A DNA stretch of 42,305 nucleotides from Reyranella massiliensis 521 (GTDB lineage Bacteria; Pseudomonadota; Alphaproteobacteria; Reyranellales; Reyranellaceae). Positions 6,273 through 42,305 of the stretch are shown here, piece after piece. Each line of letters opens with the position of its first letter. Within the stretch, counting starts at the first letter, position 1. The stretch covers positions 1 through 42,305 of the forward strand of contig CAMARK010000036.1 of NCBI GenBank assembly GCA_945860205.1, given 5' to 3'. A program made the position numbers and the translations under genes. A model generated the notes under the pieces. It worked only from the letters and a program-made list of their open reading frames with translations. It was not told the DNA's origin and did no database searches.

Positions 6273-7463
6273 ATGGCAGTCGCGGCACTCGGCTCCGCGC
6301 CTCGCGTGAAGGTGGCGCCTTGGAATGATCCGGTCATCCGCGGCTGGGTCTTTCAGGTCGTGGTCGTCGGTCTCGTCGCCGGACTCGCCTGGTATCTCGT
6401 CAGCAACACCATCGAGAACCTTGCCCGCCAGAAGATCGCCAGCGGGTTCGACTATCTCGGACGCGAAGCTGGCTTCGAAATCGGCGACTCGATGATCGAG
6501 TACTCGCCGGCAAGCACCTATGCCCGGGCGATCTGGGTCGGCATTCTCAACACGCTGCGCGTCGCCGTCCTCGGCATCATCCTCAGCACCATCCTGGGCA
6601 CGATGGTCGGCGTCGGCCGCCTGTCGCCCAACTGGCTGCTCGCCAAGATCTGCGAATGGTACGTCGAGGCGTTTCGCAACGTGCCCCTGCTGCTGTGGCT
6701 GTTCCTGTTCTACAAGCTGATCAGCGAAGCCTTCCCCGGCCCCAAGCAAGCGATCAGTGCGCTGTGGGGCTCGCTGTTCCTCAGCAACCGCGGCCTCTAC
6801 TTCCCGGTGCCGATGGCAGACCCCATCCACAAATGGATGGGGGTCGCGCTGGTGGTCGGCATCGTCGGCGCCGTCATGCTGCATCGCTGGGCGAAGAAGC
6901 GCCAGGAGGCGACCGGCCAGCCCTTCCCCTCGATCATGGCCGGCCTCGGCGTCGCATTAGGCCTGCCGTTGCTGGTATGGCTCGCCGCCGGCGCACCCAG
7001 CGCCATGAGCTGGCCCGCGCTCAAGGGCTTCAATTTTGAAGGCGGCACGGTGATCCAGCCGGAATTCACCGCGCTGCTGGTCGGACTGGTGCTCTACACG
7101 TCGGCATTCGTGGCCGAGATCGTACGCTCGGGTATCCTGGCGTTGCACAAGGGCCAGAGCGAGGCCGCGGCGGCGATCGGCCTGTCGCGTGGCCAGTCGA
7201 TGCGGCTGGTGCTGCTGCCGCAGGCGCTGCGCGTGATCGTACCGCCGATGACCAGCCAGTATCTCAACATCACCAAGAACAGCTCGCTGGCCATCGCCAT
7301 CGGCTATCCCGACCTGGTGGCCTCGATCAACGTCACGATCAACCAGACTGGCCAGGCGATCGAGAACATCCTCCTCATCATGGCCGCCTACCTGTCGGTC
7401 AGCCTGTCGATCTCCGCGTTCATGAACTGGTACAACAAACGCATCGCCCTGACGGAGCGCTGA
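6273..7463 (+). CDS. aapQ: Amino-acid ABC transporter permease AapQ-type
   Basis: A 396-aa inner-membrane permease of the His/Glu/Gln family. It has an N-terminal membrane helix near residues 24-45, then the conserved permease block starting ILNTLRVAVLGIILSTILGT. There is a long insertion in the middle, typical of AapQ/BztB. The EAA coupling loop that docks the ATPase is seen as SEAAAAIGLSRGQSMRLVLLPQALR. The next gene starts 2 bases after the stop, and AapM is its expected heterodimer partner. The ligand would be polar or general L-amino acids, by family. Confidence 0.92.
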   Translation: MAVAALGSAPRVKVAPWNDPVIRGWVFQVVVVGLVAGLAWYLVSNTIENLARQKIASGFDYLGREAGFEIGDSMIEYSPASTYARAIWVGILNTLRVAVLGIILSTILGTMVGVGRLSPNWLLAKICEWYVEAFRNVPLLLWLFLFYKLISEAFPGPKQAISALWGSLFLSNRGLYFPVPMADPIHKWMGVALVVGIVGAVMLHRWAKKRQEATGQPFPSIMAGLGVALGLPLLVWLAAGAPSAMSWPALKGFNFEGGTVIQPEFTALLVGLVLYTSAFVAEIVRSGILALHKGQSEAAAAIGLSRGQSMRLVLLPQALRVIVPPMTSQYLNITKNSSLAIAIGYPDLVASINVTINQTGQAIENILLIMAAYLSVSLSISAFMNWYNKRIALTER

Positions 7464-7465
7464 GC

Positions 7466-8749
7466 ATGTCCGACGATGCCCTGCCGTCCGGCGAACGCCG
7501 GCAACTCGCCCCACCCATCACCGACACCGGTGCGCTCGGCTGGATGCGCCGCAATCTGTTCAGCAGCTGGGCCAACGGCATCACCACCGTGGTGCTGGTC
7601 GGGTCCGTCGGCTGGATCCTCGCCGGGTTCCTCGAGTGGGCGCTCTTCACCGCGACCTTCACGGCGGCCACCGGCGCAGAATGTCGTGGCGGCGGCGCCT
7701 GCTGGGCGCTGATCCGGGAAAAATACCGCTACATCTTCTTCGGTTCGTTCCCCTACGAGCAGCATTGGCGGCCGTTGTTCGCCGTCATCGCCATGCTGGC
7801 GATGCTCGTCCTGAGCGCCGACCGCCGCATGTGGAACTGGTGGCTGCTCGTCATCTGGGGCGTCGGCTCGTTCGTCACCTTCCTGCTGATGTTCGGGCAG
7901 ATTCACATCCCGCTCAGTCTCTTCCTTTTCGTGGCGTTCGTTGTCGGCGGCATCGGCATGAGCCTGCGCCGCGGCATCGCCGACGCCGGCGAAATGAACG
8001 CCTATCGCGCCCTGGCCGCGATCGGCCTGATCGGCCTGGTGCTCCGCATCGCCGGCATCCTGCCGGCCTGGAGTCTCGCCATCGCGCCGCTCAGCTACGT
8101 CGAGACCAGCCTGTGGGGCGGCATCCCGGTCACCATGATCCTGGCCACCTATGGCCTGGCCTTCGCCTTCCCCTACGGTGTCCTGCTGGCGCTCGGCCGG
8201 CGCTCCAACCTGCCGCTGATCAAGGGCCTGTGTGTGGGCTTCATCGAGTTGATCCGCGGCGTGCCGCTGATCAGCCTGCTGATCATGGCCTCGGTCATGC
8301 TGCCCCTGTTCCTGCCGTCCGGCACCACCATCGACAAGTTCCTGCGCGCCCAGGTCGCCGTCATCCTGTTCGCCGGCGCCTACATCGCCGAGGTCATCCG
8401 CGGCGGCCTGCAGTCGTTGCCCAAGGGCCAGTTCGAGGCGGCCGATGCGATGGGCCTCAGCTATCCGCAGAAGACCCTGTTGATCATCCTGCCGCAGGCG
8501 TTGCGCGTGGTGATCCCGCCGCTGATCAACACCTTCATCGGCTTCTTCAAGGATACCTCGCTGGTGCTGATCATCGGCATCTTCGACTTCCTGAACACCG
8601 CCAACCAGGCCCTCGTCGATCCCAACTGGGCGGGCTTCCCGGCCGAGGTCTACCTGTTCGCCGCCTTCGTCTACTTCATCTTCTGTTACTCGATGTCGCG
8701 ATACAGCAAGTATCTCGAGATCGAGCTCAACAAGGGGACGCGCCGCTAG
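7466..8749 (+). CDS. aapM: Amino-acid ABC transporter permease AapM-type
   Basis: A 427-aa permease with several hydrophobic helices before the conserved HisM-like block (GGIPVTMILATYGLAFAFPYGVLL). The EAA motif is FEAADAMGLSYPQKTLLIILPQALR, followed by the conserved NTFIGFFKDTSLVLIIGIFD. The length and extra N-terminal helices fit AapM/BztC rather than a minimal HisM. It lies between aapQ (2-base gap) and the ATPase gene (21-base gap), so all are one transcription unit. Confidence 0.92.
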   Translation: MSDDALPSGERRQLAPPITDTGALGWMRRNLFSSWANGITTVVLVGSVGWILAGFLEWALFTATFTAATGAECRGGGACWALIREKYRYIFFGSFPYEQHWRPLFAVIAMLAMLVLSADRRMWNWWLLVIWGVGSFVTFLLMFGQIHIPLSLFLFVAFVVGGIGMSLRRGIADAGEMNAYRALAAIGLIGLVLRIAGILPAWSLAIAPLSYVETSLWGGIPVTMILATYGLAFAFPYGVLLALGRRSNLPLIKGLCVGFIELIRGVPLISLLIMASVMLPLFLPSGTTIDKFLRAQVAVILFAGAYIAEVIRGGLQSLPKGQFEAADAMGLSYPQKTLLIILPQALRVVIPPLINTFIGFFKDTSLVLIIGIFDFLNTANQALVDPNWAGFPAEVYLFAAFVYFIFCYSMSRYSKYLEIELNKGTRR

Positions 8750-8770
8750 GCGCGCTCAAGGAGCATCCTC

Positions 8771-9541
8771 ATGGCCGCCACCGCCGCACGCGACGTCTCC
8801 GGCACCTCCTCCGTCATCGAGATGAGGAACGTCAACAAATGGTACGGACAGTTCCATGTGCTGTCCGACATCAACCTCGAGGTGAAGGAAGGCGAGAAGA
8901 TCGTCATCTGCGGGCCGTCGGGTTCGGGCAAGTCGACGCTGATCCGCTGCATCAACCGCCTGGAAGAGCATCAGGCCGGCGATATCGTCGTGGACGGCGT
9001 GACGCTCAGCAACGACGTCACGCACATTGAGGCGATCCGCCGCGAAGTCGGCATGGTGTTCCAGTCCTTCAACCTCTTCCCGCACCTCACGATCCTCGAC
9101 AACCTGACACTGGCGCCGATCTGGGTGAAGAAGATGCCCAAGAAGGACGCCGAAGAGATCGCCATGGGTCTGCTGAAGCGGGTGCGCATCCCCGAGCAGG
9201 CGCTGAAGTATCCTGGCCAGCTCTCGGGCGGCCAGCAGCAGCGCGTCGCGATCGCCCGCGCGCTTTGCATGCGCCCCAAGATCATGCTGTTCGACGAACC
9301 GACCTCCGCCCTCGACCCGGAAATGGTCAAGGAAGTGCTCGACGTCATGATCGAGCTCGCCCGCGAAGGCATGACCATGCTGGTCGTGACGCACGAGATG
9401 GGCTTTGCCCGCGCCGTCGCCGACCGTGTGATCTTCATGGACCGCGGCGAGATCGTCGAGCAGAACGAGCCGGAGGAGTTCTTCGCCAATCCGAAGAACG
9501 AACGGACCAAGCTCTTCCTCGGCCAGATCCTGCACCGTTGA
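8771..9541 (+). CDS. aapP: Amino-acid ABC transporter ATP-binding protein AapP-type
   Basis: A 256-aa ABC ATPase with an intact Walker [11 protein letters not shown]-loop [11 protein letters not shown], signature [15 protein letters not shown], Walker [13 protein letters not shown] and switch His in VTHEMGFA. This is the polar-amino-acid subclass that works as a dimer under AapQM. It is the last transporter gene; its stop codon overlaps the TTG start of the dTDP-glucose dehydratase gene, so the two may be translationally coupled although their functions are unrelated. Confidence 0.95.
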
Positions 9542-10593
9542 GAATTCTCGTCACCGGCGGCGCGGGGTTCATCGGCTCGGCCGTCGTCCGCCACATCATC
9601 CGCGACACCGACTGGTCGGTGGCCAATGTCGACAAGCTGACCTACGCCGGCAACCTGGAATCCCTGGCCGACGCGCGCACCAGCAACCGTCACCGCCATT
9701 TCAAGGTCGACATCTGCGACCGCGCCGCAATCGACGCGGTCTTCCAGGAAGTACGGCCCGACGCCGTGCTGCATCTCGCGGCGGAAAGCCATGTCGACCG
9801 CTCGATCGACGGCGCCGCGCCCTTCATCGAGACCAACATCACCGGCACCTATACCCTCCTGGAGTCGACGCTCGCCCACTGGCGCAGTCTCGACGAGGTG
9901 GCGCGCACGCGCTTCCGCTTCCAGCACATTTCGACCGACGAGGTCTTCGGGTCGCTCGGCGCCACCGGCCAGTTCACCGAGACCACGCCTTACCAGCCCA
10001 ACTCGCCCTACTCCGCCAGCAAGGCCGCGTCCGATCACCTGGTCCGCGCCTGGCATCACACCTATGGACTGCCGACGCTCGCCACCAACTGCTCGAACAA
10101 CTACGGGCCCTATCATTTCCCCGAGAAGCTGATCCCGCTCGTCATCCTGCGCGCGCTGAGCGGCGAGAGCCTGCCGGTCTACGGCAAGGGCGAGAACGTG
10201 CGTGACTGGCTGCACGTCGAGGACCACGCGGAGGCACTGACCCTGGTGCTGCGCCGGGGCCGGCCGGGCGAGACCTACAACGTCGGCGGCGACAGCGAGC
10301 GCAAGAACATCGAGGTCGTGCACGCGATCTGCGCCCTGCTCGACGAGATGCTGCCTGGGAGTCCCAACCGGCCGCATGAGAGACTGATCAAGTTCGTCAC
10401 CGACCGGCCCGGCCACGACGCGCGCTATGCCATCGACGCCACCAAGATCAAGACCGAACTCGGCTGGCGCCCGCGCCACAGCTTCGACAGCGGCCTCAAG
10501 GACACCGTCCGCTGGTTCCTCGACAACCGCCCCTGGTGGGAGCGCGTCATGAGCGGCGCCTATCGCGGCGAGCGGCTGGGCCTTTCCACATAG
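9538..10593 (+). CDS. rfbB: dTDP-glucose 4,6-dehydratase
   Basis: A 351-aa extended SDR. It begins [16 protein letters not shown] (NAD-binding TGxxGFIG), continues with the RmlB hallmarks [22 protein letters not shown] (dehydration triad Thr-Asp-Glu) and [10 protein letters not shown] (catalytic Tyr/Lys), and has [18 protein letters not shown]. It converts dTDP-glucose to dTDP-4-keto-6-deoxyglucose. The TTG start is forced by the conserved N-terminus and overlaps the aapP stop in TTGA. No rmlA, rmlC or rmlD is adjacent, but FdtA- and FdtB-like genes that use its product lie 0.7-2.2 kb downstream on the other strand. Confidence 0.93.
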
Positions 10594-10982
10594 GCATTCG
10601 GCGCCGGAAAGTGGACCATTTCCCGGCACACCTCGCTGTGCCGTGGGTTGTCCCCCTGCCTGTGCCACGAACCATAGCCAAGTCTTTGATTGGGCGGCGC
10701 AATCCCGCCCTGATCGGTTGTGCCAACACATCCGGCAAGTTTGCGTCATGAGTGTGTGCCGGCCGGGTCGCGATGGCCGGAGCACGGAAGCAAAGACAAA
10801 CGCCCTGCGGATCTCTCTGCCGGGCGTTACATCAGGGCTTCTCCAGCCTATCGAGAATTATAGCCAGAACCTGCTGATCCTGCAAGTCAACGGATTATGG
10901 CCAAAGGATGTTACCTGCAACGGCGGCAGGAACGACCGACAGACGACCGAGTTGACTCCCTAGCCAACGAAGGAGGCCCATC
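10594..10982. other. 389-base gap after rfbB; possible mobile-element scar and hairpin
   Basis: I see no credible gene here. Two things stand out. First, CCGGAAA...TTTCCCGG around GTGGACCA (10604-10626) looks like sequence often found at IS21-type element ends, but no transposase is present. Second, AACGCCC (10799-10805) pairs with GGGCGTT (10822-10828) around a 16-base loop without a T tract. The last bases hold the AAGGAGG ribosome site of the lipoprotein gene. Confidence 0.4.
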
Positions 10983-11306
10983 ATGAGATCCATCAATATC
11001 GTGGCGGTGGCGGCGCTTGCCGCGGTCGCCGGAGGATGCGCGTCAGACCCTTACTACGCGCGCAGCAACGCCTATCGGGCGCCGAGCTATGGATACGCGT
11101 CGCAATCGCCGAACTACGCCTATTCGCCCGGGTATGTGTACGCGCCGGCGCCGACTTATTCCTATGCACCGCCGCCGGGCTACCGGAACACGTCCTATTA
11201 TACGTATCCGCAGCAGAATACGCCGCGGAGCAATTACGACGGCTATTGGGATTACCAGCGTAACTACCGGGGCATCAACGGCAGCCCGGAGTTCAGCTCG
11301 ATGTAG
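10983..11306 (+). CDS. Small tyrosine-rich lipoprotein
   Basis: A 107-aa protein with a lipoprotein signal (MRSINIVAVAALAAVAGG|C, lipobox AGGC at residues 16-19). The mature part is very rich in Tyr, Pro, Ser and Asn, with repeated SYGYAS, NYAYSPGYVYAP and YSYAPPPGY segments, suggesting a disordered surface or periplasmic tether. A strong AAGGAGG ribosome site 6 bases upstream supports expression. It overlaps the tail of the convergent aminotransferase gene by 14 bases. I do not recognise a family; placement beside sugar genes suggests an envelope role but proves nothing. Confidence 0.75.
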   Translation: MRSINIVAVAALAAVAGGCASDPYYARSNAYRAPSYGYASQSPNYAYSPGYVYAPAPTYSYAPPPGYRNTSYYTYPQQNTPRSNYDGYWDYQRNYRGINGSPEFSSM

Positions 11307-12414
11307 CGTGACTCTGGCTTAGTATCGCGCGGACGGTGGCGGCGACTTCGTCCACCGTATCGAGTTTCATTTGAGGTCCCATCGGCAGGCTGAGGACCGT
11401 TTGCGCAAGTTCCTCGGCCAACGGATAACTGCCCTTGACCTGCTTCAGGTCGGCGTAAGCCTCCTGAAGATGGGGTGGGATGGGATAGTGAATGAGCGAT
11501 CCGATGCCCGCCTTGTCGAGTGCCTTGACGAGGTCGGCGCGACGCTTTGTGCGGACAACGTAGAGATGCCACACCGGCTCGGCCCATTGAGGCGCACGCG
11601 GCAGGCCGAGGCCGGGGATTCCGGCCAGCTTGTCGCCGTACCGCGCAGCGACAAGCCGGCGGCGCTCGTTCCAGAAATCGAGCTTGGGCAGTTTGACGCG
11701 CAGGAAGGCTGCCTGCAGCTCGTCGAGCCGCGAATTGTAGCCGCGCTCTAGGTTCACATACTTCACGCGGCTGCCGTAGTTGCGCAAGGTCCGCAGCCGC
11801 TCGGCGAGCTTGGGATCGTCGGTGGTGACCGCGCCACCATCGCCATAGGCGCCGATGTTCTTGGTCGGAAAGAAACTGTGCGCCCCGGCATGTCCGATGG
11901 CGCCGGCGCGTCGGCCACGCACTTTAGAGCCCTGCGCCTGGGCCACATCCTCGATCACCTTGATTCCCTGGCGATCGGCCAGCGCCATGATGGCGTCCAT
12001 ATCAGCCGGCTCACCGTAGAGATGGACCGGCATGATCGCCCGGGTGCGCGGCGTGATCGCCGCGGCGATGCGGTCGGGATCGATGTTGGGGCCGGCGGGC
12101 GTCGGCTCGACCGGAACGACCTTGGCGCCCACAGCCGTCACCGCGAGCCATGTCGCAATATAAGTATTGGACGGTACGATGACCTCGTCGCCGGGGCCGA
12201 GATCCCAAGCGCGCAGTACCAGCTCCAGCGCTTCCAGGCCGTTGGCGAGCCCAACGCAGTGCTTCGTCCCGCAGAACGCCGCGTACTCGGCTTCGAACGC
12301 CTCGACTTCCTTGCCGAGGACGTACCAGCCGGACTCCATCACACGGGCATAGGCGGCATCGAGTTCCGGCTTCAACTCGGCATAGATCGACTTCATATCG
12401 AGAAAGGGGATCAT
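11293..12414 (-). CDS. fdtB: DegT/DnrJ/EryC1/StrS aminotransferase, FdtB/QdtB-like
   Basis: A 373-aa PLP-dependent sugar aminotransferase. The family start is IPFLDMKSIYAEL, and the PLP lysine is K185 in SFFPTKNIGAYGDGGA. GYNSRLDELQAAFLRVKL and HLYVVRT are also present. Next to an FdtA-like isomerase it most likely transaminates dTDP-3-keto-6-deoxyhexose at C3 to give dTDP-Fuc3N or dTDP-Qui3N. It is the last gene of the minus-strand operon and overlaps the FdtA gene by ATGA. Other StrS enzymes act at C4, so the C3 assignment rests on the neighbour. Confidence 0.88.
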   Translation of the reverse strand: MIPFLDMKSIYAELKPELDAAYARVMESGWYVLGKEVEAFEAEYAAFCGTKHCVGLANGLEALELVLRAWDLGPGDEVIVPSNTYIATWLAVTAVGAKVVPVEPTPAGPNIDPDRIAAAITPRTRAIMPVHLYGEPADMDAIMALADRQGIKVIEDVAQAQGSKVRGRRAGAIGHAGAHSFFPTKNIGAYGDGGAVTTDDPKLAERLRTLRNYGSRVKYVNLERGYNSRLDELQAAFLRVKLPKLDFWNERRRLVAARYGDKLAGIPGLGLPRAPQWAEPVWHLYVVRTKRRADLVKALDKAGIGSLIHYPIPPHLQEAYADLKQVKGSYPLAEELAQTVLSLPMGPQMKLDTVDEVAATVRAILSQSHATSS

Positions 12415-12842
12415 GTCGTCCTGCCCGCGGCCGCGCGCTTGAAGGTCTCATAGTCGCGCAAATACTCAGCCTCGTCGTAAAGCGTGGAGGCGATGACAAG
12501 AATCACCGCCTGCGGCGTGAAATCCGTGAGCTCGTGCCAGACGAGGGGGCCGATATGGACGGCCTGCGAAGGATCGTCGAGCACGACCGTTTCTTTCACC
12601 TTGCCGTCGTCCAGGTGAACCTTGCAGGAGCCATTCAGCAGCAAGGTGACCAGGTGCGACTCGCGATGGCCGTGACGGCCGCGCCACTGGCCGGGCGCGA
12701 TGTGATGGAGCCAGAAAAGACGCTTCGGCACGAAACCGAGTTTGTCGTCGAACGACAGGAAATTGACCTGGCCGCGCGCATCGGCAGCGCCTGGAATCGA
12801 GATCCAGCGGCAACCGCGTGTTTTGAGTGTGGGATTGGTCAT
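12411..12842 (-). CDS. fdtA: dTDP-4-oxo-6-deoxyglucose 3,4-ketoisomerase (FdtA/QdtA/WxcM cupin)
   Basis: A 143-aa single-domain cupin. It matches FdtA/QdtA throughout: RLFWLHHIAPGQWRGRHGH with the active-site HxH pair, LLLNGSCKVHLDDG, VHIGPLVWHELTDF and ASTLYDEAEYLRDY. It would move the keto group from C4 to C3 of the RfbB product, ready for the aminotransferase that overlaps it. FdtA (galacto product) and QdtA (gluco product) cannot be told apart by eye. It starts 16 bases after the upstream EamA stop, so it is probably part of the same operon. Confidence 0.88.
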   Translation of the reverse strand: MTNPTLKTRGCRWISIPGAADARGQVNFLSFDDKLGFVPKRLFWLHHIAPGQWRGRHGHRESHLVTLLLNGSCKVHLDDGKVKETVVLDDPSQAVHIGPLVWHELTDFTPQAVILVIASTLYDEAEYLRDYETFKRAAAGRTT

Positions 12843-12858
12843 CGTCGGGAAGTCTATC

Positions 12859-13779
12859 TCAGCGGTGTGTCGTCTGCAGCTTGCGCCATTGCATGTAGAC
12901 CACGCCGCTCAATGCCACGAGGCCGCCCACGATCTGATAGGCATTGGGCATAAAGCCATAGGCCATTGACCACAATATGGCGAAGAACGGAACGAGGTTG
13001 ACCCACAGCGAGGCCACCGCGACCCCGAGGCGGCTCGCCCCCACGTTCCAGAAATAGCCGCCCAGCGCACTCGCAAACACCGCGACGGCCAGGAGCTGTG
13101 TCCAGACCCAGGGGTCGGTCACGGTCACCGGAGAGCGCGTCCATCCCAGCCCGATCAGCACAAGGCTGAACATCACCATCCAGCTCATGGCCGACAGCGA
13201 GGCAACATAGGTGCGGTGAAGCTGGCTTGCCCGATCGAACCACGCCTGCGCCTTGAGGCTGTAGAGCGTCCATAGGGCGTTGGAGAGCAGCACGACGAAC
13301 TCACCGCCTCCCAGGGTGACGGAACCGCTGCCCAGGAGACTACCGGCGACCAGGATCGCGCCGCCCAGCAGGGTCAACCCCAGAGCAACGGCGAATCCCG
13401 GATCGAACCGGGCGCCGGTGACCGCGCGCACGGTCGCGGCGGCGACCAACGGACCCGCGACCTGGACAGCCGCCGCCGAGATCGGATTGCTGAACTGGAT
13501 GCCTAGCGTATAGAGCGCGAAGAAGCCCCCCATCATCAGGCCGAGCAAGGCAAAGCGGCGAAGGCCGACATCGATCCGGAGGCCGCCGACGCCCTCGACC
13601 ATCGCCACCAGCAGCGCCAGGATGACGGCACCCGACGCCGTCCGGATCGCCGACATCGGGATCAGGTCGAAATGCTCCAGCATCACCTTCGACACCGGCA
13701 CGTTGGCGCCCCAGCTTATGCCCACGAACACCATGGCCGCGAATGCGCCCAGCAGGTGGCGATGCTCGCGGGCGATCAT
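12859..13779 (-). CDS. EamA (DMT) family transporter, second of a tandem pair
   Basis: A 306-aa inner-membrane protein with about ten hydrophobic helices in two EamA repeats (MVFVGISWGANVPVSKVML at the start; GGEFVVLLSNALWTLYSLKAQAW opening the second half). Drug/metabolite transporters of this class usually export small polar metabolites; the substrate is unknown. The start at 13779 overlaps the preceding EamA gene by ATGA, suggesting paired expression and possibly a heterodimer. It sits between folate/pteridine genes and amino-sugar genes in one operon. Confidence 0.85.
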   Translation of the reverse strand: MIAREHRHLLGAFAAMVFVGISWGANVPVSKVMLEHFDLIPMSAIRTASGAVILALLVAMVEGVGGLRIDVGLRRFALLGLMMGGFFALYTLGIQFSNPISAAAVQVAGPLVAAATVRAVTGARFDPGFAVALGLTLLGGAILVAGSLLGSGSVTLGGGEFVVLLSNALWTLYSLKAQAWFDRASQLHRTYVASLSAMSWMVMFSLVLIGLGWTRSPVTVTDPWVWTQLLAVAVFASALGGYFWNVGASRLGVAVASLWVNLVPFFAILWSMAYGFMPNAYQIVGGLVALSGVVYMQWRKLQTTHR

Positions 13780-14714
13780 CCTGCGCGCCGGGTGGACCGG
13801 GCGGCCCGCATCTGGCGGATCTGCAATTGCGCGATGCCGCCCATCACGACGGCGCCGCCCGCGAGCTGCAGCCAGCTCGGCTCGAACCCCATCAGGGCGG
13901 CGAGACCGATGGCGAAAACCGGCGCGGAGTTGGAGAACAGCGAGGCCACCGGCACGCCGACCAGCGACACGCCGGTGTTCCACAGCAGCACCGCCACGGC
14001 GACACCCAGCACGCCGATCCAGACCAGCATGCCGCCTTCGAGCGGCGTTGGCGCCCGCGTCGGCAGGTCGAGGCCGAGCGTCGCCCAGACGACGAGGCAG
14101 ACCACGGCCAGCAGCACGCTCGCCACGCTCGAGGTCAGCGCCGACAGCGCCATCTGGCCGCGATCCGCCAGCCATTGCTGGGCCCGGATCGAATACCAGC
14201 TCCAGCAGAGCTGGGCGATCACCAGCAGGAGTTCGCCGCCCTCGATCCCGAGACCACCGGCCGCGCGCCCCGGCGTGCCCAGCACGACGAGCACGCCGCC
14301 ACCGACCACCAGCACGAGGGTGAGATAAAAGCCCGGTGGCGGCATGGCATGCAGCAGCAGGCGCGACAGGATGGTGGCCCAGATCGGCCCACACATCAGG
14401 ACGATGGCGGCCGTGGCGGGATGGGCGTTCGCGACACCGAAGGTGTAGAGCACTGAAAAAGCCGCCATCGCCGCCCCGAGGCGGAACAGACGCCCCGGCT
14501 GCAGCGGTCGCGGCACCGCAACGGGCGGCGTGCTGCACAGGACCGCGAGCCACAGCACCGGCAGGCCCAGCACATAGCGCGACCATGACAGCAGCCACTT
14601 GTCGTAATGTTCCGCCAATGCCGCCAGCACCGGGATCATCGAGCCCCAGATCAGTGCCGCGAGGAGCAGCACCAGGGTCGCGCGCCTGAGCGCGCCGGTG
14701 GACGGGTCGGCCAC
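13776..14714 (-). CDS. EamA (DMT) family transporter, first of a tandem pair
   Basis: A 312-aa membrane protein with about ten helices. LVLLLAALIWGSMIPVLAAL opens the first EamA repeat and GGELLLVIAQLCWSWYSIRAQQW the second. It is a paralogue of the next gene (similar repeat openings, same length). The GTG at 14712-14714 is chosen because it starts 13 bases after the folB stop; an upstream GTG at 14807 would run 80 bases into folB. The start is therefore uncertain. Substrate unknown. Confidence 0.82.
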   Translation of the reverse strand: MADPSTGALRRATLVLLLAALIWGSMIPVLAALAEHYDKWLLSWSRYVLGLPVLWLAVLCSTPPVAVPRPLQPGRLFRLGAAMAAFSVLYTFGVANAHPATAAIVLMCGPIWATILSRLLLHAMPPPGFYLTLVLVVGGGVLVVLGTPGRAAGGLGIEGGELLLVIAQLCWSWYSIRAQQWLADRGQMALSALTSSVASVLLAVVCLVVWATLGLDLPTRAPTPLEGGMLVWIGVLGVAVAVLLWNTGVSLVGVPVASLFSNSAPVFAIGLAALMGFEPSWLQLAGGAVVMGGIAQLQIRQMRAARSTRRAG

Positions 14715-36114: not shown

Positions 36115-36444
36115 CTAGCGTCGGCTCTGCTTCGCCAGCGCCGACGCAATCGCCTCCCGGGTTGCCGCGGGCTGGTCGGCGATCGCCTTGGCGATCAGGT
36201 CGAGCTGGCCGCGCAGCGTATGCACCTGGTCGACCAGGTCGATCACGACGGCGACCGTCTCGTCGTCGAGGCCGAGGTCGTCCGTCAATTCGACCAGCAG
36301 ATGCGTGCGCGCCACGTCGACCGTCTCGAACGTCCATGAATCGGCATCGCCGCCGGGCCGCAGCAGGCCGCGCGCCACCCAGCGTTCGACATGGACGGTG
36401 GTGAGACCGCCGTGCTGGCGCAGCAGGTCGTCGAGGGTCGTCAC
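36115..36444 (-). CDS. cbpM: Chaperone modulator CbpM
   Basis: A 109-aa small protein with a MerR-like winged-helix start (LRQHGGLTTVHVERWVARGLLRP) and a C-terminal coiled helix (VVIDLVDQVHTLRGQLDLIAKAIA). CbpM binds the J domain of CbpA and blocks its stimulation of DnaK. The GTG start at 36442-36444 forms a GTGA overlap with the cbpA stop, which fixes both the start and the operon. Confidence 0.85.
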   Translation of the reverse strand: MTTLDDLLRQHGGLTTVHVERWVARGLLRPGGDADSWTFETVDVARTHLLVELTDDLGLDDETVAVVIDLVDQVHTLRGQLDLIAKAIADQPAATREAIASALAKQSRR

Positions 36445-37373
36445 GTGAACTGCTCCATGGCCTTGCGCGGATCGTAGGCGCGCCCCGCTTCCCATTTCTC
36501 GAGGAACTCCTTCAACTTCTCGTCGGGCTGCTCGGGCAGCGTGACCTTCAACTTCACGTACTGGTCGCCGCGCTGGCCGGACTTGCGGTCGAGCAGGCCA
36601 CGGCCCTTGAGGCGGAGCGACGTGCCGGTGTTGGAGGCGGCCGGAACATTCAGCATGACCGCGCCGCCCACGGTCGGCACACGGATCTTGCCGCCCAGCG
36701 CCGCCTCGGTCACCGTCACCGGTAGTTCGACATGGATGTCGTTGTCGCGAGTCTCGAAGAAGGCGTGCGGCTCGACATGGATTTCCACATAGGCATCGCC
36801 CGCCGGCCGGCCTTGCGTGCCGGGCATGCCCTGCCCCTTCAGCCGCAACGTCTGGCCATCGCTCGTGCCTTCGGGAACGTCGATGTCGAGCGTCTTGCCG
36901 TCAGGCAAGGTGACGCGCTGCTTGCCGCCGCGCGCGGCCACCAGGAAGGGAACACGCAGGCTGTAGGTCACCGGCATGCCGCCAATGTCGAAGCCGCCGC
37001 CGGGCCCACCGCCGAAGCCGCGCCGCTCGCCGAACATCTCGGAAAAGATGCCCCCCATGTCGACGAAGGATTCATGACCGCCCGCATGCGCGTACTTGGC
37101 GCCGCCGGGGCCGCCCGCCTGATCGCGATAAAAGCCGCGCGGTGGCATCTCCTGGCCGGTGTCGTCGATCTCGCCGGCATCGAACCGGCGGCGCTTCTCG
37201 ACGTCCGAAAGAAGATCGTTCGCCTGCGAAATCTCCTTGAACTTCGCTTCGGCCGCCTTGTCGCCCGGATTGAGATCGGGATGGTGCTTCTTGGCGAGCT
37301 TGCGGAACGCTTTGCGGATGTCGTCTTCGGAAGCGGTTCGCGGCACGCCGAGCACTGAGTAGGGATCGCTCAT
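36441..37373 (-). CDS. cbpA: DnaJ-class co-chaperone CbpA
   Basis: A 310-aa type-II J protein. The J domain covers residues 1 to about 70 with HPD in KKHHPDLNPGDK. A Gly-rich linker (FGGGPGGGFDIGG) follows, then two beta-barrel client domains (LRLKGQGMPG and LRLKGRGLLD repeats). The CxxCxGxG zinc fingers of DnaJ are absent. It delivers clients to DnaK, and its immediate neighbour encodes the CbpM inhibitor. The ATG at 37373 gives the normal family N-terminus MSDPYSVLGV. Confidence 0.9.
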   Translation of the reverse strand: MSDPYSVLGVPRTASEDDIRKAFRKLAKKHHPDLNPGDKAAEAKFKEISQANDLLSDVEKRRRFDAGEIDDTGQEMPPRGFYRDQAGGPGGAKYAHAGGHESFVDMGGIFSEMFGERRGFGGGPGGGFDIGGMPVTYSLRVPFLVAARGGKQRVTLPDGKTLDIDVPEGTSDGQTLRLKGQGMPGTQGRPAGDAYVEIHVEPHAFFETRDNDIHVELPVTVTEAALGGKIRVPTVGGAVMLNVPAASNTGTSLRLKGRGLLDRKSGQRGDQYVKLKVTLPEQPDEKLKEFLEKWEAGRAYDPRKAMEQFT

Positions 37374-37641
37374 ATTCCTAGAAATGTGGTGTGGATTGCC
37401 TTCTTGCAAGGACTCGGGCGCTGGAGCCCTGCTGGCCAACATTGCCCGGACGTGAACGCGAATTGAGCGTCGGGGCTCTTTCCCTCAAGAACGGCAAATA
37501 CCACCTCCTCGATCAAGGCCCCCTGTGGTCGAGCAACTCTCCGAGATATTCATGAGCAATCCTAACAGGTTAACCAAGAATCGAAGCGGGCGGCCCTTGC
37601 AGTGGGCGTCGATGTTATCGCATATCAACTGAAGTTAGTAT

Positions 37642-37669
37642 TTGACCTGACGGCTGGCTTTGCTACGGT
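37642..37669 (+). promoter_or_regulatory. Candidate sigma-70 promoter of the NRPS-PKS genes
   Basis: TTGACC (37642-37647) and TACGGT (37664-37669) are spaced by 16 bases. The -35 matches the TTGACA consensus at 5 of 6 positions; the -10 is weak. Transcription would begin about 100 bases before the ATG. Confidence 0.35.
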
Positions 37670-37686
37670 CGGGTTGGGGACAAGTG

Positions 37687-37734
37687 ACGGTGTTGGGAAA
37701 CGCCGTCTTTGTGGGGCGTCGGGTCGGGAACCCG
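37687..37734 (+). promoter_or_regulatory. Two leader hairpins before the NRPS gene
   Basis: ACGGTGTT (37687-37694) pairs with AACGCCGT (37699-37706) around a GGGA tetraloop, with one G-U pair, and is followed by CTTTG. Then CGGGT (37720-37724) pairs with ACCCG (37730-37734). They could form an attenuator-like leader; there is no long T tract. Confidence 0.35.
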
Positions 37735-37777
37735 GCGCAGGAACGACTTTGGTTGTTTCGAAGTGGATGGACAGACA

Positions 37778-39679
37778 ATGGTTGGGTGGCGACCCGGCGC
37801 AGCGGTGCCCGCGGCGCATCGTGGCGACGACGATTCCGAACTCGGAGCGATCGGCGAAACAATAACGAAGCGGTTTGCCGCGAGCGTGCAAGCTGCCGCT
37901 TCGGCTGTCGCCGTTGTGCAAGGCGTCGAAAGTCTGACCTACGCCGACCTCGATCGGCGTTCGAACCAGCTCGCTCGCTTCCTGCACCACCAGGGCGTGC
38001 GCGCGGGAAGCGTCGTGGCGTTGCACGCCGGGCGTTCGATCGCGTCGGTTCTGGCCATTCTGGCCACGCTCAAGACCGGTGCCGCCTATATGCCGTTGGA
38101 TCCGACGGCTCCGATTGCCTACCACGACTGGATCCTGCGCGACTGCGGCGCCGACATGGCCCTGTCCGGCAGCGACCGGATCGCCGAGTTTTCCGTGCCG
38201 ACGATGAACCTCGAGGAGACACTCGCCGCTGCCGAGTCCGAGCCCGAGGCCGCGCTGGAAATCGCCTGCGGACCGGCTGACATCGCCTGCATCATGTACA
38301 CCTCCGGCTCGACCGGCCGCCCGAAAGGCGTGCTGATCCCCCACCGCGCCGTGGTGCGTCTGGTCATCGACCAGAGCTACGCCCATTTCGGCCCGGACGA
38401 GGTCTTCCTCCACAACGCGCCGCTCGCCTTTGACGCCAGCACGTTCGAGATATGGGGCACGCTGCTGCACGGCGCGCGAGGCGTCCTCATCGAGGACGAC
38501 CGTGCGTCGCTTCAATCGATCGTCGACACCATCCAGGAGCACCGCGTCACGACGGCCTGGTTCACGGCCGGCCTTTTCCATGCGCTGGTCGACCATCAGC
38601 TCAACGCGCTCGAAGGCCTCCGCCAAATCCTCGCCGGCGGCGACGTGCTGTCGCCCACCCATGTGCTGCGCGCGCAGGCCGCGCACCCGGACTGCCAGCT
38701 GATCAACGGCTACGGCCCGACGGAGAATGCCACTTTCACCTGTTGCTACCGGATTCCGCGCGAGGGCTGGGGCGGCGGGCCGGTGCCGATCGGCGTGCCC
38801 ATCCGCGGAACCTACGTCCGCCTTCTCGACGACGACATGAAGCCCGTGGCCGAGGGCGAAGTCGGCATGCTCTATGCCGGTGGCCTGGGCCTCGCGTCCG
38901 GCTACCTGGGCGATGCACGGCATTCGGCAACGCAGTTCGTTGCCGATCCGCTGCACGTCGGCGCGACGCTCTATCAAACCGGCGACCTCGCGCGACTCCG
39001 CGCCGACGGCAACGTCGATTTCATCGGCCGCCGCGACCGCCAGATCAAGATCGACGGCAAGCGCGTCGAACTCAGCGAGATCGAAGAGGCCATGCGGTGC
39101 AGCAGTGGCGTCGCAGACGCCGTCGTGACGGCGGTCCGAAACGAAGCCGGTGCGACCCTGCTGACCGCCTACATCAAGTCGGTATCGAGCGTTCATGATC
39201 GCGCGGCGCTGGTATTAGAGGCGCGCGCAAGGCTTTTGCGGGCGTTGCCACCCCACATGCAGCCTTCACAGGTCGTCGTTCTCGACGAATTTCCACTGAC
39301 GCAGAACGGCAAGGTCGACCAGGAACGCCTGCCCGTGCGCCGGTTGAGCGAGGCACCTCCGGCGCGTTCCGCAACAGGTAAAACCGCAGGGATCCTGAGT
39401 GGCATCTTCGCGCGCACGCTCGGCCTGCGCGACATCGGACAGGACACCAACTTCTTCGACCTCGGCGCCACGTCGCTGAAGCTGGTCGAGGCCCATGCGT
39501 TGATCGCGCTGATCTGGCCCAGCGTCGACGTCCTCGCCCTCTTCCAGCATCCCAACATCCGCGAACTCTCCCAGGCGATCGAGGGACGGGCCGCGTCGGT
39601 CCAGAGCGCCGGACAGCACCGGGCGCAGCAGCAGGCCGCAGCCCTGCGGCGGCTGCGAACGTCCAGGCGGGCGGAATGA
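37778..39679 (+). CDS. NRPS adenylation-thiolation didomain protein (valine-type)
   Basis: A 633-aa protein with one adenylation and one carrier domain and no condensation domain. Core motifs: A3 YTSGSTGRPKGV, A4 FDASTFEIWG, A5 NGYGPTENATF, A7 YQTGDLARLRADG, A8 GRRDRQIKIDGKRVELSEIEE, A10 NGKVD. The carrier Ser is S566 in DLGATSLK, a variant of the usual GGxS core. Aligning to GrsA by eye gives the ten-residue pocket code D-A-F-W-L-G-G-T-F-K, one residue from a known valine code. It should load an amino acid, probably valine, as a starter for the PKS that overlaps it by ATGA. Confidence 0.9.
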   Translation: MVGWRPGAAVPAAHRGDDDSELGAIGETITKRFAASVQAAASAVAVVQGVESLTYADLDRRSNQLARFLHHQGVRAGSVVALHAGRSIASVLAILATLKTGAAYMPLDPTAPIAYHDWILRDCGADMALSGSDRIAEFSVPTMNLEETLAAAESEPEAALEIACGPADIACIMYTSGSTGRPKGVLIPHRAVVRLVIDQSYAHFGPDEVFLHNAPLAFDASTFEIWGTLLHGARGVLIEDDRASLQSIVDTIQEHRVTTAWFTAGLFHALVDHQLNALEGLRQILAGGDVLSPTHVLRAQAAHPDCQLINGYGPTENATFTCCYRIPREGWGGGPVPIGVPIRGTYVRLLDDDMKPVAEGEVGMLYAGGLGLASGYLGDARHSATQFVADPLHVGATLYQTGDLARLRADGNVDFIGRRDRQIKIDGKRVELSEIEEAMRCSSGVADAVVTAVRNEAGATLLTAYIKSVSSVHDRAALVLEARARLLRALPPHMQPSQVVVLDEFPLTQNGKVDQERLPVRRLSEAPPARSATGKTAGILSGIFARTLGLRDIGQDTNFFDLGATSLKLVEAHALIALIWPSVDVLALFQHPNIRELSQAIEGRAASVQSAGQHRAQQQAAALRRLRTSRRAE

Positions 39680-42305
39680 GCATTCCGGAGAACGCCATCG
39701 CCATCATTGGCGTTTCCGGCAGGTTCCCTGGCGCCGACGACCTGGAGCAGTTCTGGGCCAACATCCGCGCCGGCAAGATCTCGATCAGCCGCTTCTCTGA
39801 TGCCGAGTTGGAAGACGCCTTTCCTCCCGATATTCGCAACGCCACCAACTTCGTGCGGGCGCGGCCAATCCTCGCCAACGTCGACAAGTTCGATGCCGAG
39901 TTCTTCGGCATGCTGCCCCGCGAGGCGGCGCTCACCGATCCGCAACACCGGCTTCTGCTCGAGTGCGCCTGGTCCGCGCTCGAGGATGCTGGCTACGATC
40001 CCGCGCGATATTCCGGCGCGATCGGCGTGTTCGCCGGTTGCAGCATGAACACCTACCTGCTCACGAACGTCCTCGCCGAACGGCTCGATGCGGATCGGTT
40101 CGCCAGCGACTACCAGGTCGGATCATACGATGCGTTGCTCGGCGCCCTGCCCGACACGCTGGCAACGCGCATTGCCTACAAGCTGAACCTGCGCGGTCCG
40201 GCCATGACGGTGCAGAGCGCCTGTTCGACGTCGCTTCTCGCCATCGCCGAGGCCTGCCAGAGCCTGCTGCTCTACCAGTCGGACATGGCGCTGGCCGGCG
40301 GCGCCTCCATCACCTTCCCTCAGAAGCGCGGCTATCAGCATCTGGACGGCGGCATGGTGTCGCCCGACGGCGTTTGCCGCCCGTTCGACGACGGCGCCGC
40401 GGGCACCATCTTCGGCGATGGTGCTGCGATCGTGCTGCTGAAGCGCCTCGCCGACGCCATCGAAGACCGGGATCATATCTATGCCGTCATTCGCGGCAGC
40501 GCAGTCAACAACGACGGCAGCGACAAGGTCGGCTTCACCGCGCCCAGCGAGCGGGGACAGGCGTCGGTCATCGCCTCGGCGATCGCCTCGGCCGGCGTGG
40601 ACGCGGCGTCGATCGGCTATGTCGAATGCCATGGCACCGCGACTCCTCTCGGAGACCCCATCGAATTCGCCGGGCTGGTGCAGGGCTTCGGATCGTCGCG
40701 GGTCGACCGGCCCCATTGTGCGCTGGGTTCCGCCAAGGCGAACATCGGCCATCTGGACGTAGCCGCTGGCGCCGCGGGACTGATCAAGGCGACGCTTGCA
40801 CTCAATCATCATGAGATCCCGCCGCTGGCGAACTTCCACAAGCCCAACCGGCACATCGACCTCGCCGGAACACCGTTCTACTTCCCGAAGGCCCCGGTCG
40901 CCTGGCCGCAGGGACGTTCCCCGCGACGCGCCGGCGTCAGTTCCTTCGGCGTCGGCGGCACAAACGTGCACGTCGTGCTCGAGGAAGCGCCGTCTGCTGT
41001 ACGGGTTCGCGAAGCAACGCAGCGCCGCCACGTCCTGCCGCTGTCGGCCAGGAACGATGCGGCGCTCGCCGCCGCTGCGACAAACCTCGCGGACCATCTC
41101 GCCCGCAACCCCGACACGGCGCTGGAGGATGTCGCCCATACGCTACAGGTGGGCCGCCGCGCCTTCGCGCGCCGAGCCGCGGTCGCCTGCTCGTCCCGCG
41201 AAGAGGCGATAGAGGCGCTGCGTGCCCTCACCACGCCCGCGCCCTGGCCGGCCGGACGGGCGCCGCTGATTTTCATGTTTCCCGGACAGGGCGCGCAGTA
41301 TCCGGGAATGGCGCGCGACCTCTACCGCGATCACGCGACCTTCAGGGCGTTGATGGACGAGGGCATCGCGATTGCGGACCCGACCGTCGGCGCCGGCCTG
41401 CGCGCACAGCTGCTGGAGCCCGAGGCGACCGGCGGCGACGCGACTCTGCTCGCACAACCGGCCCTGTTCATCTTCGAATACGCGCTGGCGAGGCTCTGGA
41501 TGTCCTGGGGCCTGCGCCCTGATGCCATGGTGGGTCACAGCGTCGGCGAGTTCGTCGCGGCTTGTCTGGCCGGCGTCTTCTCCTTCGAGGAAGGCTGCCG
41601 GCTCATCGCCACACGCGCGCGGATCATGCAAACGATGGCACCGGGCGCCATGCTGGCGGTGCGCCTCCCGGAGGCCGAACTCCGCGCGGAACTGGGGGAG
41701 GCGCTCGACCTTGCCGCCATCAATGCGCCGTCGCTTTGCGTCGCCTCGGGCTCGCGCGAACAAATCGACGCTCTGAACGACAGGCTGACCAAGCGCGGCG
41801 TCGCCTGCCGGCTTCTCGCCGTCTCGCATGCCTTCCATTCACGCTCGCTCGATCCGGCGCTGGCAGAGATCGAGCGCGCCACTGGCGCCGTGCCGCTGGC
41901 ACCTCCGCAGATTGCCTTCGCATCGAGCGTCACGGGCGGTTGGGTGGAAGCAGCGCAAGCGATCGACCCCAAGTACTGGGCGCAGCATGGCCGGGCGCCG
42001 GTTCGATTTGCCGACGCACTTGCCACGGTGGCGCAGGACGGCCAGCCGTTCCTGCTCGAAGTCGGGCCTGGTCGCACCCTGTCGGCTCTGGCGGCGCAGA
42101 CCATCGACCGGCGCCGGATGCGCGGCGTAACGGCGAGCCTCGCGGATATCGACACCGATGGTCTGTCCGAGGCGCTCGCCGCGCTGTGGCGTGCGGGCTT
42201 CACGCCGGACTGGAACGCCGTCGCGGGCACACATGGCCGCCGCATCCCGTTGCCGACCTATTGCTTTCAGAGATCGCGCCATTGGATCGACCGTGCGGGA
42301 AAGCG
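39676..42305 (+). CDS. Type I polyketide synthase, KS-AT (3' end outside window)
   Basis: 876 codons are visible. The ketosynthase has C183 (VQSACSTSLL), H319 (ECHGTATPLGDPIE) and H359 (KANIGHLDVAAG), so the active triad is complete. The acyltransferase has S622 in GHSVGEFVAA and HAFH at 718-721, the malonyl-CoA type motif (methylmalonyl types usually have YASH). A post-AT linker PLPTYCFQRSRHWI ends the visible part, so a reductive or carrier domain should follow beyond the window. It overlaps the A-T gene by ATGA, and the KS probably accepts the aminoacyl starter from that protein. Confidence 0.93.
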   Translation, partial: MSIPENAIAIIGVSGRFPGADDLEQFWANIRAGKISISRFSDAELEDAFPPDIRNATNFVRARPILANVDKFDAEFFGMLPREAALTDPQHRLLLECAWSALEDAGYDPARYSGAIGVFAGCSMNTYLLTNVLAERLDADRFASDYQVGSYDALLGALPDTLATRIAYKLNLRGPAMTVQSACSTSLLAIAEACQSLLLYQSDMALAGGASITFPQKRGYQHLDGGMVSPDGVCRPFDDGAAGTIFGDGAAIVLLKRLADAIEDRDHIYAVIRGSAVNNDGSDKVGFTAPSERGQASVIASAIASAGVDAASIGYVECHGTATPLGDPIEFAGLVQGFGSSRVDRPHCALGSAKANIGHLDVAAGAAGLIKATLALNHHEIPPLANFHKPNRHIDLAGTPFYFPKAPVAWPQGRSPRRAGVSSFGVGGTNVHVVLEEAPSAVRVREATQRRHVLPLSARNDAALAAAATNLADHLARNPDTALEDVAHTLQVGRRAFARRAAVACSSREEAIEALRALTTPAPWPAGRAPLIFMFPGQGAQYPGMARDLYRDHATFRALMDEGIAIADPTVGAGLRAQLLEPEATGGDATLLAQPALFIFEYALARLWMSWGLRPDAMVGHSVGEFVAACLAGVFSFEEGCRLIATRARIMQTMAPGAMLAVRLPEAELRAELGEALDLAAINAPSLCVASGSREQIDALNDRLTKRGVACRLLAVSHAFHSRSLDPALAEIERATGAVPLAPPQIAFASSVTGGWVEAAQAIDPKYWAQHGRAPVRFADALATVAQDGQPFLLEVGPGRTLSALAAQTIDRRRMRGVTASLADIDTDGLSEALAALWRAGFTPDWNAVAGTHGRRIPLPTYCFQRSRHWIDRAGK

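Follow-up and report, generated by a model that had tools for sequence, protein, structure and literature searches.

Organization of the locus

The window is a stretch of 42,305 nucleotides, contig CAMARK010000036.1 (here C36) of the assembly GCA_945860205.1, and its right end carries the beginning of a hybrid gene cluster of the nonribosomal peptide synthetase (NRPS) and polyketide synthase (PKS) type. Two cluster genes are seen here: one for a free-standing protein with an adenylation (A) and a thiolation (T) domain, and one for a type I PKS, of which the ketosynthase (KS) and acyltransferase (AT) domains are present. The host is, as the preliminary description of this DNA had supposed, an alphaproteobacterium, and belongs to the genus Reyranella. 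The features are as follows.

36441..37442, minus strand: DnaJ-type chaperone gene (Pfam DnaJ and DnaJ_C), the left neighbour and not part of the cluster
37443..37777, no strand: divergent intergenic region ahead of the operon (sequence read)
37778..39679, plus strand: free-standing A-T protein of 633 amino acids (aa) (Pfam, start, motifs; pocket DAFWLGGTF, a valine-type reading)
39676..39679, plus strand: ATGA, in which the A-T stop overlaps the PKS start (sequence)
39676..42305, plus strand: PKS-NRPS, first 876 codons (KS-AT), truncated by the contig end (Pfam; contig end; R. massiliensis orthologue)
39691..40836, plus strand: ketosynthase domain, both Pfam halves (Pfam, motifs)
41269..42111, plus strand: acyltransferase domain (Pfam, motifs)

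Both proteins named in the preliminary description are real, with their Pfam domains, catalytic residues and motifs intact. The A-T frame (37709-39679, from TTG 37709 onward) matches AMP-binding (E 9.5e-80), AMP-binding_C and PP-binding; its translation likely starts at ATG 37778, since the N-terminus then matches that of relatives. The motifs of the A domain are present, the carrier motif is LGATSL, and the amino acid adenylation model TIGR01733 is matched above its cut-off (374.8 vs 317.4 bits). Similarly, the PKS frame (39676-42303) matches ketoacyl-synt (E 2.5e-69), Ketoacyl-synt_C and Acyl_transf_1 (E 6.9e-52), and it has the KS catalytic residues Cys180, His319 and His356 along with the AT motifs GHSVGE and HAFHS. 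The HAFH motif is presumably malonyl-type.

The ATGA overlap between the two genes was recovered as described, and from it translational coupling may be supposed. The promoter-like sequence attributed to the operon was not, as a sigma-70 consensus scan of 37380-37860 gave no sites, other promoter types being outside that scan. The PKS gene is indeed cut at 42305, but at this position the assembled contig itself ends, and not merely the window. On the left, the chaperone genes reported earlier are represented on the minus strand by DnaJ, along with a MerR-type protein (Pfam).

The complete cluster in relatives and in the host genome

The R. massiliensis 521 operon encodes the A-T protein, a PKS-NRPS of 2544 aa with the order KS-AT-T-AMT-C-A-T (AMT, aminotransferase; C, condensation domain), a C-TE protein of 743 aa (TE, thioesterase), in which no T domain was found, and an alpha/beta hydrolase with a weak PETase-like Pfam match. 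A phosphopantetheinyl transferase (PPTase) lies on the opposite strand. The four same-strand genes are joined by four-base overlaps, and the hydrolase of the core has a hydrophobic N-terminus. The same gene order is found in the nearest relatives of the window, genomes G013 and G054 (loci L077 and L085), whose PKSs are 91 and 93% identical. Within the genus, 27 of 65 genomes (the window's own included) match the PKS at an identity of at least 71%, five of them being partial or split; in the family's other genera, ten genomes gave no match to it at E 1e-100. Among structures in the PDB, 8xjy (‘Polyketide synthase’) is the best sequence match of the PKS (E 1.3e-217). Chain 8xjz_C of ‘Peptide synthetase’ ranks among the best hits to the A-T protein, but it has 1634 residues and is not a free-standing A-T. 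Neither title names a product. Assignment to NF045894, a type I PKS plus short-chain dehydrogenase/reductase (SDR), was rejected, as the match reaches 832.6 of 1740 bits over positions 2-879 only and the orthologue has AMT-C-A-T in its second half.

The window's own genome (4.98 Mb in 210 contigs) contains a single modular KS, along with five other KS matches in frames of 400-484 aa. As no condensation domain match was obtained anywhere in this assembly, the idea that the remainder of the cluster lies elsewhere in it was given up; a DNA search instead located the right end. Contig C1 of the same genome starts with the last 17 codons of the C-TE gene, followed by the hydrolase and the PPTase, and then by glutathione S-transferase (GST), acyl-CoA dehydrogenase and ligase genes. 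Measured on L085 (positions 6954 to 14188), about 7.2 kb separates C36 from C1, and this unassembled part presumably resembles that of relatives. Since both ends are present and their order is that of relatives, the cluster is very probably complete, at about 12-13 kb. Thus, the carrier domains, thioesterase and PPTase which the preliminary description had looked for beyond the window are found in relatives, with the right end on the genome's own contig. The modules are few: there is one PKS module, one NRPS module and one degenerate terminal module.

The proposed left border is consistent with genomes that have no PKS orthologue. DnaJ was searched in eight such Reyranella genomes; seven matched at E<=1e-100, and six were read, G035 being excluded for its contig edge. 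Beside DnaJ in these six, no A-T, KS, AMT or C-TE match was found. One minus-strand frame near DnaJ in G006 matches the PKS-NRPS query at 80.6 bits and was taken for an AMP-ligase. The acyl-CoA dehydrogenase frame starts about 30 bases past the DnaJ frame in two of the six (G025 and G011) and lies about 1.1-3.7 kb from DnaJ in G051, G033 and G006, while only the ligase was recognised in G009. In R. massiliensis, the cluster flanks the dehydrogenase and ligase genes from the opposite side. It resembles an accessory insertion, and in part of the genus its position is roughly constant.

A siderophore reading was also considered and rejected. It concerned a FecR-type anti-sigma gene (L067:137-1159, minus strand) beside the cluster in one R. 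massiliensis region only. No sigma factor was recognised adjoining it, and phmmer with its protein gave no match in the other Reyranella regions examined. Being confined to one region, this gene is not part of the cluster core.

Members of the family

The family set was taken from 80 genome_contigs loci retained out of 263, two plasmid regions and eleven Reyranella regions. Thirty loci were retained, each with AMT, terminal C and TE, so that the presence of AMT and terminal C is a criterion of selection; five duplicates of G genomes were removed, as were truncated loci and those of other architecture. Members are found among Reyranella, Rhizobium, Chelativorans, Pseudaminobacter, Bosea, Camelimonas, Novosphingobium, Rhodobacter, Defluviimonas, Hyphomonadaceae, Paraburkholderia, Marinobacterium, a gammaproteobacterium and further groups. 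In a quick KS-AT tree of 53 rows, the 15 Reyranella-clade rows, including the window, form one group (support of 100 in the Shimodaira-Hasegawa-like approximate likelihood ratio test, SH-aLRT). Two deep forks are weak (36), and L088 and L092, which have a full-length last A domain, are placed outside the alphaproteobacterial rows. The ratio of nonsynonymous to synonymous substitution rates (dN/dS) is well under 1 in the pairs measured. It is 0.06-0.24 for the AMT and 0.07-0.37 for the terminal C domain in seven pairs, the latter being like other domains or somewhat higher. By this measure, the terminal C domain is under purifying selection and has retained a function. Conserved-neighbour clustering was blurred by shadow frames and was used as a lead only.

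The Rhizobium and Loktanella plasmid clusters (L055, L157 and L158) are like that of the window in having A-T, KS-AT-T-AMT-C-A-T, a terminal C with TE, and a PPTase, the PKS being about 50-55% identical. They differ from it in their location, which is within annotated polysaccharide loci, in the retention of the last T domain, and in the glycine-type pocket of the second A domain (A2) of L055. In one of them (Rhizobium, L157:30603-32264), a GINT1_N-domain protein, of a glycosyltransferase-linked Pfam family, occupies the position of the hydrolase. Related KS-AT-T-AMT lines (L133, L138, L141, L151 and L152; L106, L108, L109 and L123) also occur in Bacteroidota and Verrucomicrobiota, with an A domain fused before the KS, and in Cyanobacteria. 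The cyanobacterial ones have C-A-T, KS-AT-T-AMT and C-A-T-TE in separate frames.

Substrate pockets and catalytic residues

The pockets of the A domains were read by anchoring on motifs. That of the A-T protein (A1) is DAFWLGGTF in the window; it is exact in 13 of 30 rows and differs by one letter in five. A table in PMC9113097 lists this code as Val for MlcM. As the A1 pockets vary among relatives, valine is no family-wide rule. In A2, a DILQ-type pocket, presumably for glycine, is present in 14 of 28 rows, DVTQ or DVAQ in ten and DAP in two (both of these groups being Reyranella-clade rows), and DALWLGGTF in two.

The AMT domain, which is similar to glutamate-semialdehyde aminomutases, has its Lys (motif TYGKV) in 30 of 30 relatives, and the internal C domain has both His residues in 29 of 29. 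The TE nucleophile is a Cys throughout (30/30), and in 11 aligned C-TE proteins this Cys is invariant, as are an Asp and a His. In a predicted C-TE structure (mean pLDDT, predicted local distance difference test, 76.7; pTM, predicted template modelling score, 0.51), the invariant Asp comes straight after a strand. Foldseek with this model returned ordinary condensation domains (e.g. TomBC 8qnf and CmnI 9uay) and AB3403 (4zxh), which gave no functional hint.

Probable decay of the terminal module

The canonical motif HHxxxDG is absent from the terminal C domain in 24 of 30 relatives, in which the second His is replaced (HS in six, HA in seven, HG in one and HQ in ten). The remaining six keep HH, two of them with DC instead of DG. 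All 13 complete Reyranella-clade loci have lost the second His, while the first His, the Asp and the Gly are invariant across the 11 aligned proteins.

The rest of the module varies from genus to genus. In Marinobacterium L088, the order is C(HH)-A-T-TE and the A motifs are intact, whereas in L092 (8741-12802) C(HQ) is joined by a full-length A domain that lacks the ATP-binding motif TSGSTG and the A5 motif YGPTE; on these missing motifs, the latter is a standing pseudo-enzyme. In Loktanella L158, only a weak AMP-binding_C remnant (E 0.00099, below the Pfam cut-off) precedes the T domain. Rhizobium and Chelativorans have C-T-TE, and Reyranella, Novosphingobium, Paraburkholderia and Bosea have C-TE. 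It is plausible that this series, from a live A domain through a dead one and a remnant to the loss of A and then of T, reflects a stepwise decay. However, Bosea, Rhodobacter and Defluviimonas lack an A domain yet retain HH, and support for the deep forks of the tree is weak; the order of decay is therefore plausible and not proven.

Proposed chemistry

The order KS-AT-T-AMT-C-A of the iturin/mycosubtilin type is found in the R. massiliensis orthologue. According to PMC4219810, MycA (mycosubtilin, iturin family) and PuwE (puwainaphycin) likewise have a PKS module, then an aminotransferase domain and then an NRPS module, which gives a beta-amino acyl unit with the amine placed at the beta position. 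These systems start from a fatty acid via a fatty-acyl ligase and lead to cyclic lipopeptides, whereas here an amino-acid-type A domain is the starter and only one complete NRPS module follows. A fatty-acyl ligase starter was not found: TIGR01733 is matched above cut-off, and the pocket is of the amino-acid type beginning DA.

Gene order, domains and catalytic residues were observed in relatives, and both cluster ends in the window's genome; substrates, reaction order, product and role are inferred. Following the logic of MycA and PuwE, the cluster is probably a short hybrid assembly line that starts from valine and malonate, proceeds via a beta-amine, is extended by one amino acid and is released by a Cys thioesterase. 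Valine or a similar branched amino acid would be loaded onto the free-standing A-T protein and extended by KS-AT with one malonyl unit. The embedded aminotransferase, dependent on pyridoxal phosphate (PLP), would then convert the beta-keto group to an amine. The resulting 3,4-diamino-5-methylhexanoyl thioester would be a beta,gamma-diamino acid, to which C-A-T would append one amino acid; the pocket for the latter is glycine-type in half of the relatives and altered in Reyranella. The C-TE protein, with its C domain as a remnant of a lost elongation module, would free the product via its Cys-His-Asp thioesterase, and the hydrolase with the hydrophobic N-terminus and the PPTase would round off the core.

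The preliminary description had proposed an aminoacyl-primed product of the gamma-amino-beta-keto type. Aminoacyl priming is probable; the ketone is not supported, as a class-III AMT follows the PKS module in all 30 relatives (which were selected for it), the closest orthologues included, and the beta-keto group is therefore expected to become an amine. Two corrections to the earlier interpretation are needed: a beta-amine is expected instead of a beta-ketone, and the assembly line is short. Some points weigh against the scheme from valine to the released amine. The AMT, C-A-T (with A2) and most of C-TE, including the terminal C and the TE Cys, are unassembled in the window's genome, and the frame in G056 is interrupted (2012 aa). 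Furthermore, the pocket reading is anchored on motifs with GrsA positions as the guide, and 12 of 30 A1 pockets are neither exact nor one letter off, e.g. DAFLLGAVM and, in Bosea, DFWNIGMVH, which is presumably Thr-like.

Other outcomes were weighed at three steps of this scheme. An AMT that is inactive, or active elsewhere, would leave a gamma-amino-beta-keto product. By established logic, KS-AT extension of an aminoacyl starter gives just that intermediate, but the invariant TYGKV lysine and the low dN/dS of the AMT make such an outcome very unlikely. At the release step, the thioesterase might close a strained ring of the kind found in sulfazecin and obafluorin (a beta-lactam or a beta-lactone), and it does share the Cys nucleophile with SulM (sulfazecin) and ObiF1 (obafluorin), according to PMC11298585. 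However, that paper places the Asp of ring formers at position II and, for beta-lactam formers such as SulM, requires Gln-Cys-Asn; here the invariant Asp, following the predicted strand, is read as position I, the residues flanking the Cys differ, and Gln-Cys-Asn is absent. A Cys thioesterase whose Asp is at position I, AB3403, is also mentioned in that paper. Ring closure is highly improbable. The terminal C domain, for its part, might still form an amide bond, the acceptor being a free amine rather than a carrier-bound amino acid. Its retention in all 30 loci (again selected for it), its low dN/dS, the HH of six loci and the invariant remainder of the motif are in favour of this; the replaced second His, also in all 13 complete Reyranella-clade loci, and the dead or truncated A domains, which suggest that the acceptor module was lost, render it quite unlikely.

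Polysaccharide neighbourhood and possible roles

Poly_export and Bac_transf, for polysaccharide export and initiation, were tested as markers of polysaccharide loci in 29 genomes or records, i.e. all 17 family loci outside Reyranella, SL42, Loktanella, and ten of the 13 complete genomes in the Reyranella clade. Of the 15 non-Reyranella genomes, 14 have a marker no farther than 25 kb from the KS, as do all four plasmid records (18/19 together), against a mean chance at a random place of 0.048 in the 15 genomes and of 0.08-0.40 in the plasmids; the limit of 25 kb was chosen after the rows were seen, and genomes of the same genus do not count as independent. The 58 kb contig of Marinobacterium carries no marker. 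In Reyranella, none of the ten genomes has a marker within this distance, several contigs being short, and the nearest ones in two complete chromosomes are 337 and 781 kb off.

In Rhizobium CCGE531, Rhizobium SL42 and Loktanella, the cluster is embedded in annotated exopolysaccharide (EPS) loci. A TIGR04325 methyltransferase gene adjoins the cluster or is near it in Reyranella L081, L098 and G055, is about 15 kb off in G056, and gives a weak edge match in G017. It is also found near the cluster in Marinobacterium, Bosea, Rhizobium and Loktanella, and family membership was confirmed for G055, L088, L096, L157 and L158; beside the window's cluster on C1 it was not found. In Reyranella G048 (L070:453-3745), an MdoG (periplasmic glucan) gene and a family 2 glycosyltransferase lie a few kb upstream of the cluster.

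For the role of the product, an even chance is given to a free bioactive metabolite, i.e. a small, secreted, amine-rich dipeptide-like compound (a protease inhibitor, antimetabolite, metal binder or signal), with the polysaccharide neighbourhood reflecting a shared insertion site or regulation. Release by a thioesterase is the usual end of such assembly lines, and in Reyranella, the clade of the window, the cluster sits beside housekeeping genes with no polysaccharide locus nearby; against this, the core has no recognised gene for export or resistance, and the polysaccharide association extends over many genera. That association, the EPS loci, the methyltransferase found in several genera and the genes next to the G048 cluster argue for a polysaccharide partner. 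In that case, the C-TE protein (or the hydrolase) would transfer the diamino-acyl peptide to a sugar that belongs to an exopolysaccharide, a capsule or a periplasmic glucan, or the peptide would act on that polymer. Proximity is not function, however, and with the result in Reyranella, the markerless Marinobacterium contig, the post hoc limit and the non-independence of genera, such a partner is rather unlikely. The broadest proposal is that of a dedicated NRPS-PKS line, widespread in Proteobacteria, whose beta,gamma-diamino-acyl peptide serves surface polysaccharides as a substituent or partner, with the decayed terminal module as a transfer platform and with uncoupling from the polysaccharide locus in Reyranella; as a whole, it must be considered unlikely.

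The part of the literature that was searched describes no such cluster and no product for it. PMC12403116 reports an NRPS-PKS with biofilm-promoting products and is not counted as evidence here. The cluster family, its decayed yet selected end module and its gene company are new. If the reading as a short line is right, there is a coherent family of such lines in soil, plant-associated and aquatic proteobacteria, whose beta,gamma-diamino acids are unusual building blocks. As the NRPS module seems to decay in steps while its C domain stays selected, the role of a C domain without its catalytic His becomes testable. The polysaccharide-linked genes near most relatives hint at an unexpected job for an assembly line, their role being unproven; the link, if causal, would join two usually separate fields.

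Two further observations concern the surroundings. A pair of FdtA (PF05523) and DegT aminotransferase (PF01041) genes, typical of 3-amino-sugar synthesis, lies at 11293-12842 of the window (minus strand), about 25 kb left of the cluster, and no transferase genes were recognised around it. A second, unrelated PKS (32-34% identity, frames of about 2480-2520 aa), possibly a conserved megasynthase, is present in Reyranella G010, G011, G012, G017, G021, G022, G027, G034, G050, G064, G066 and G067.

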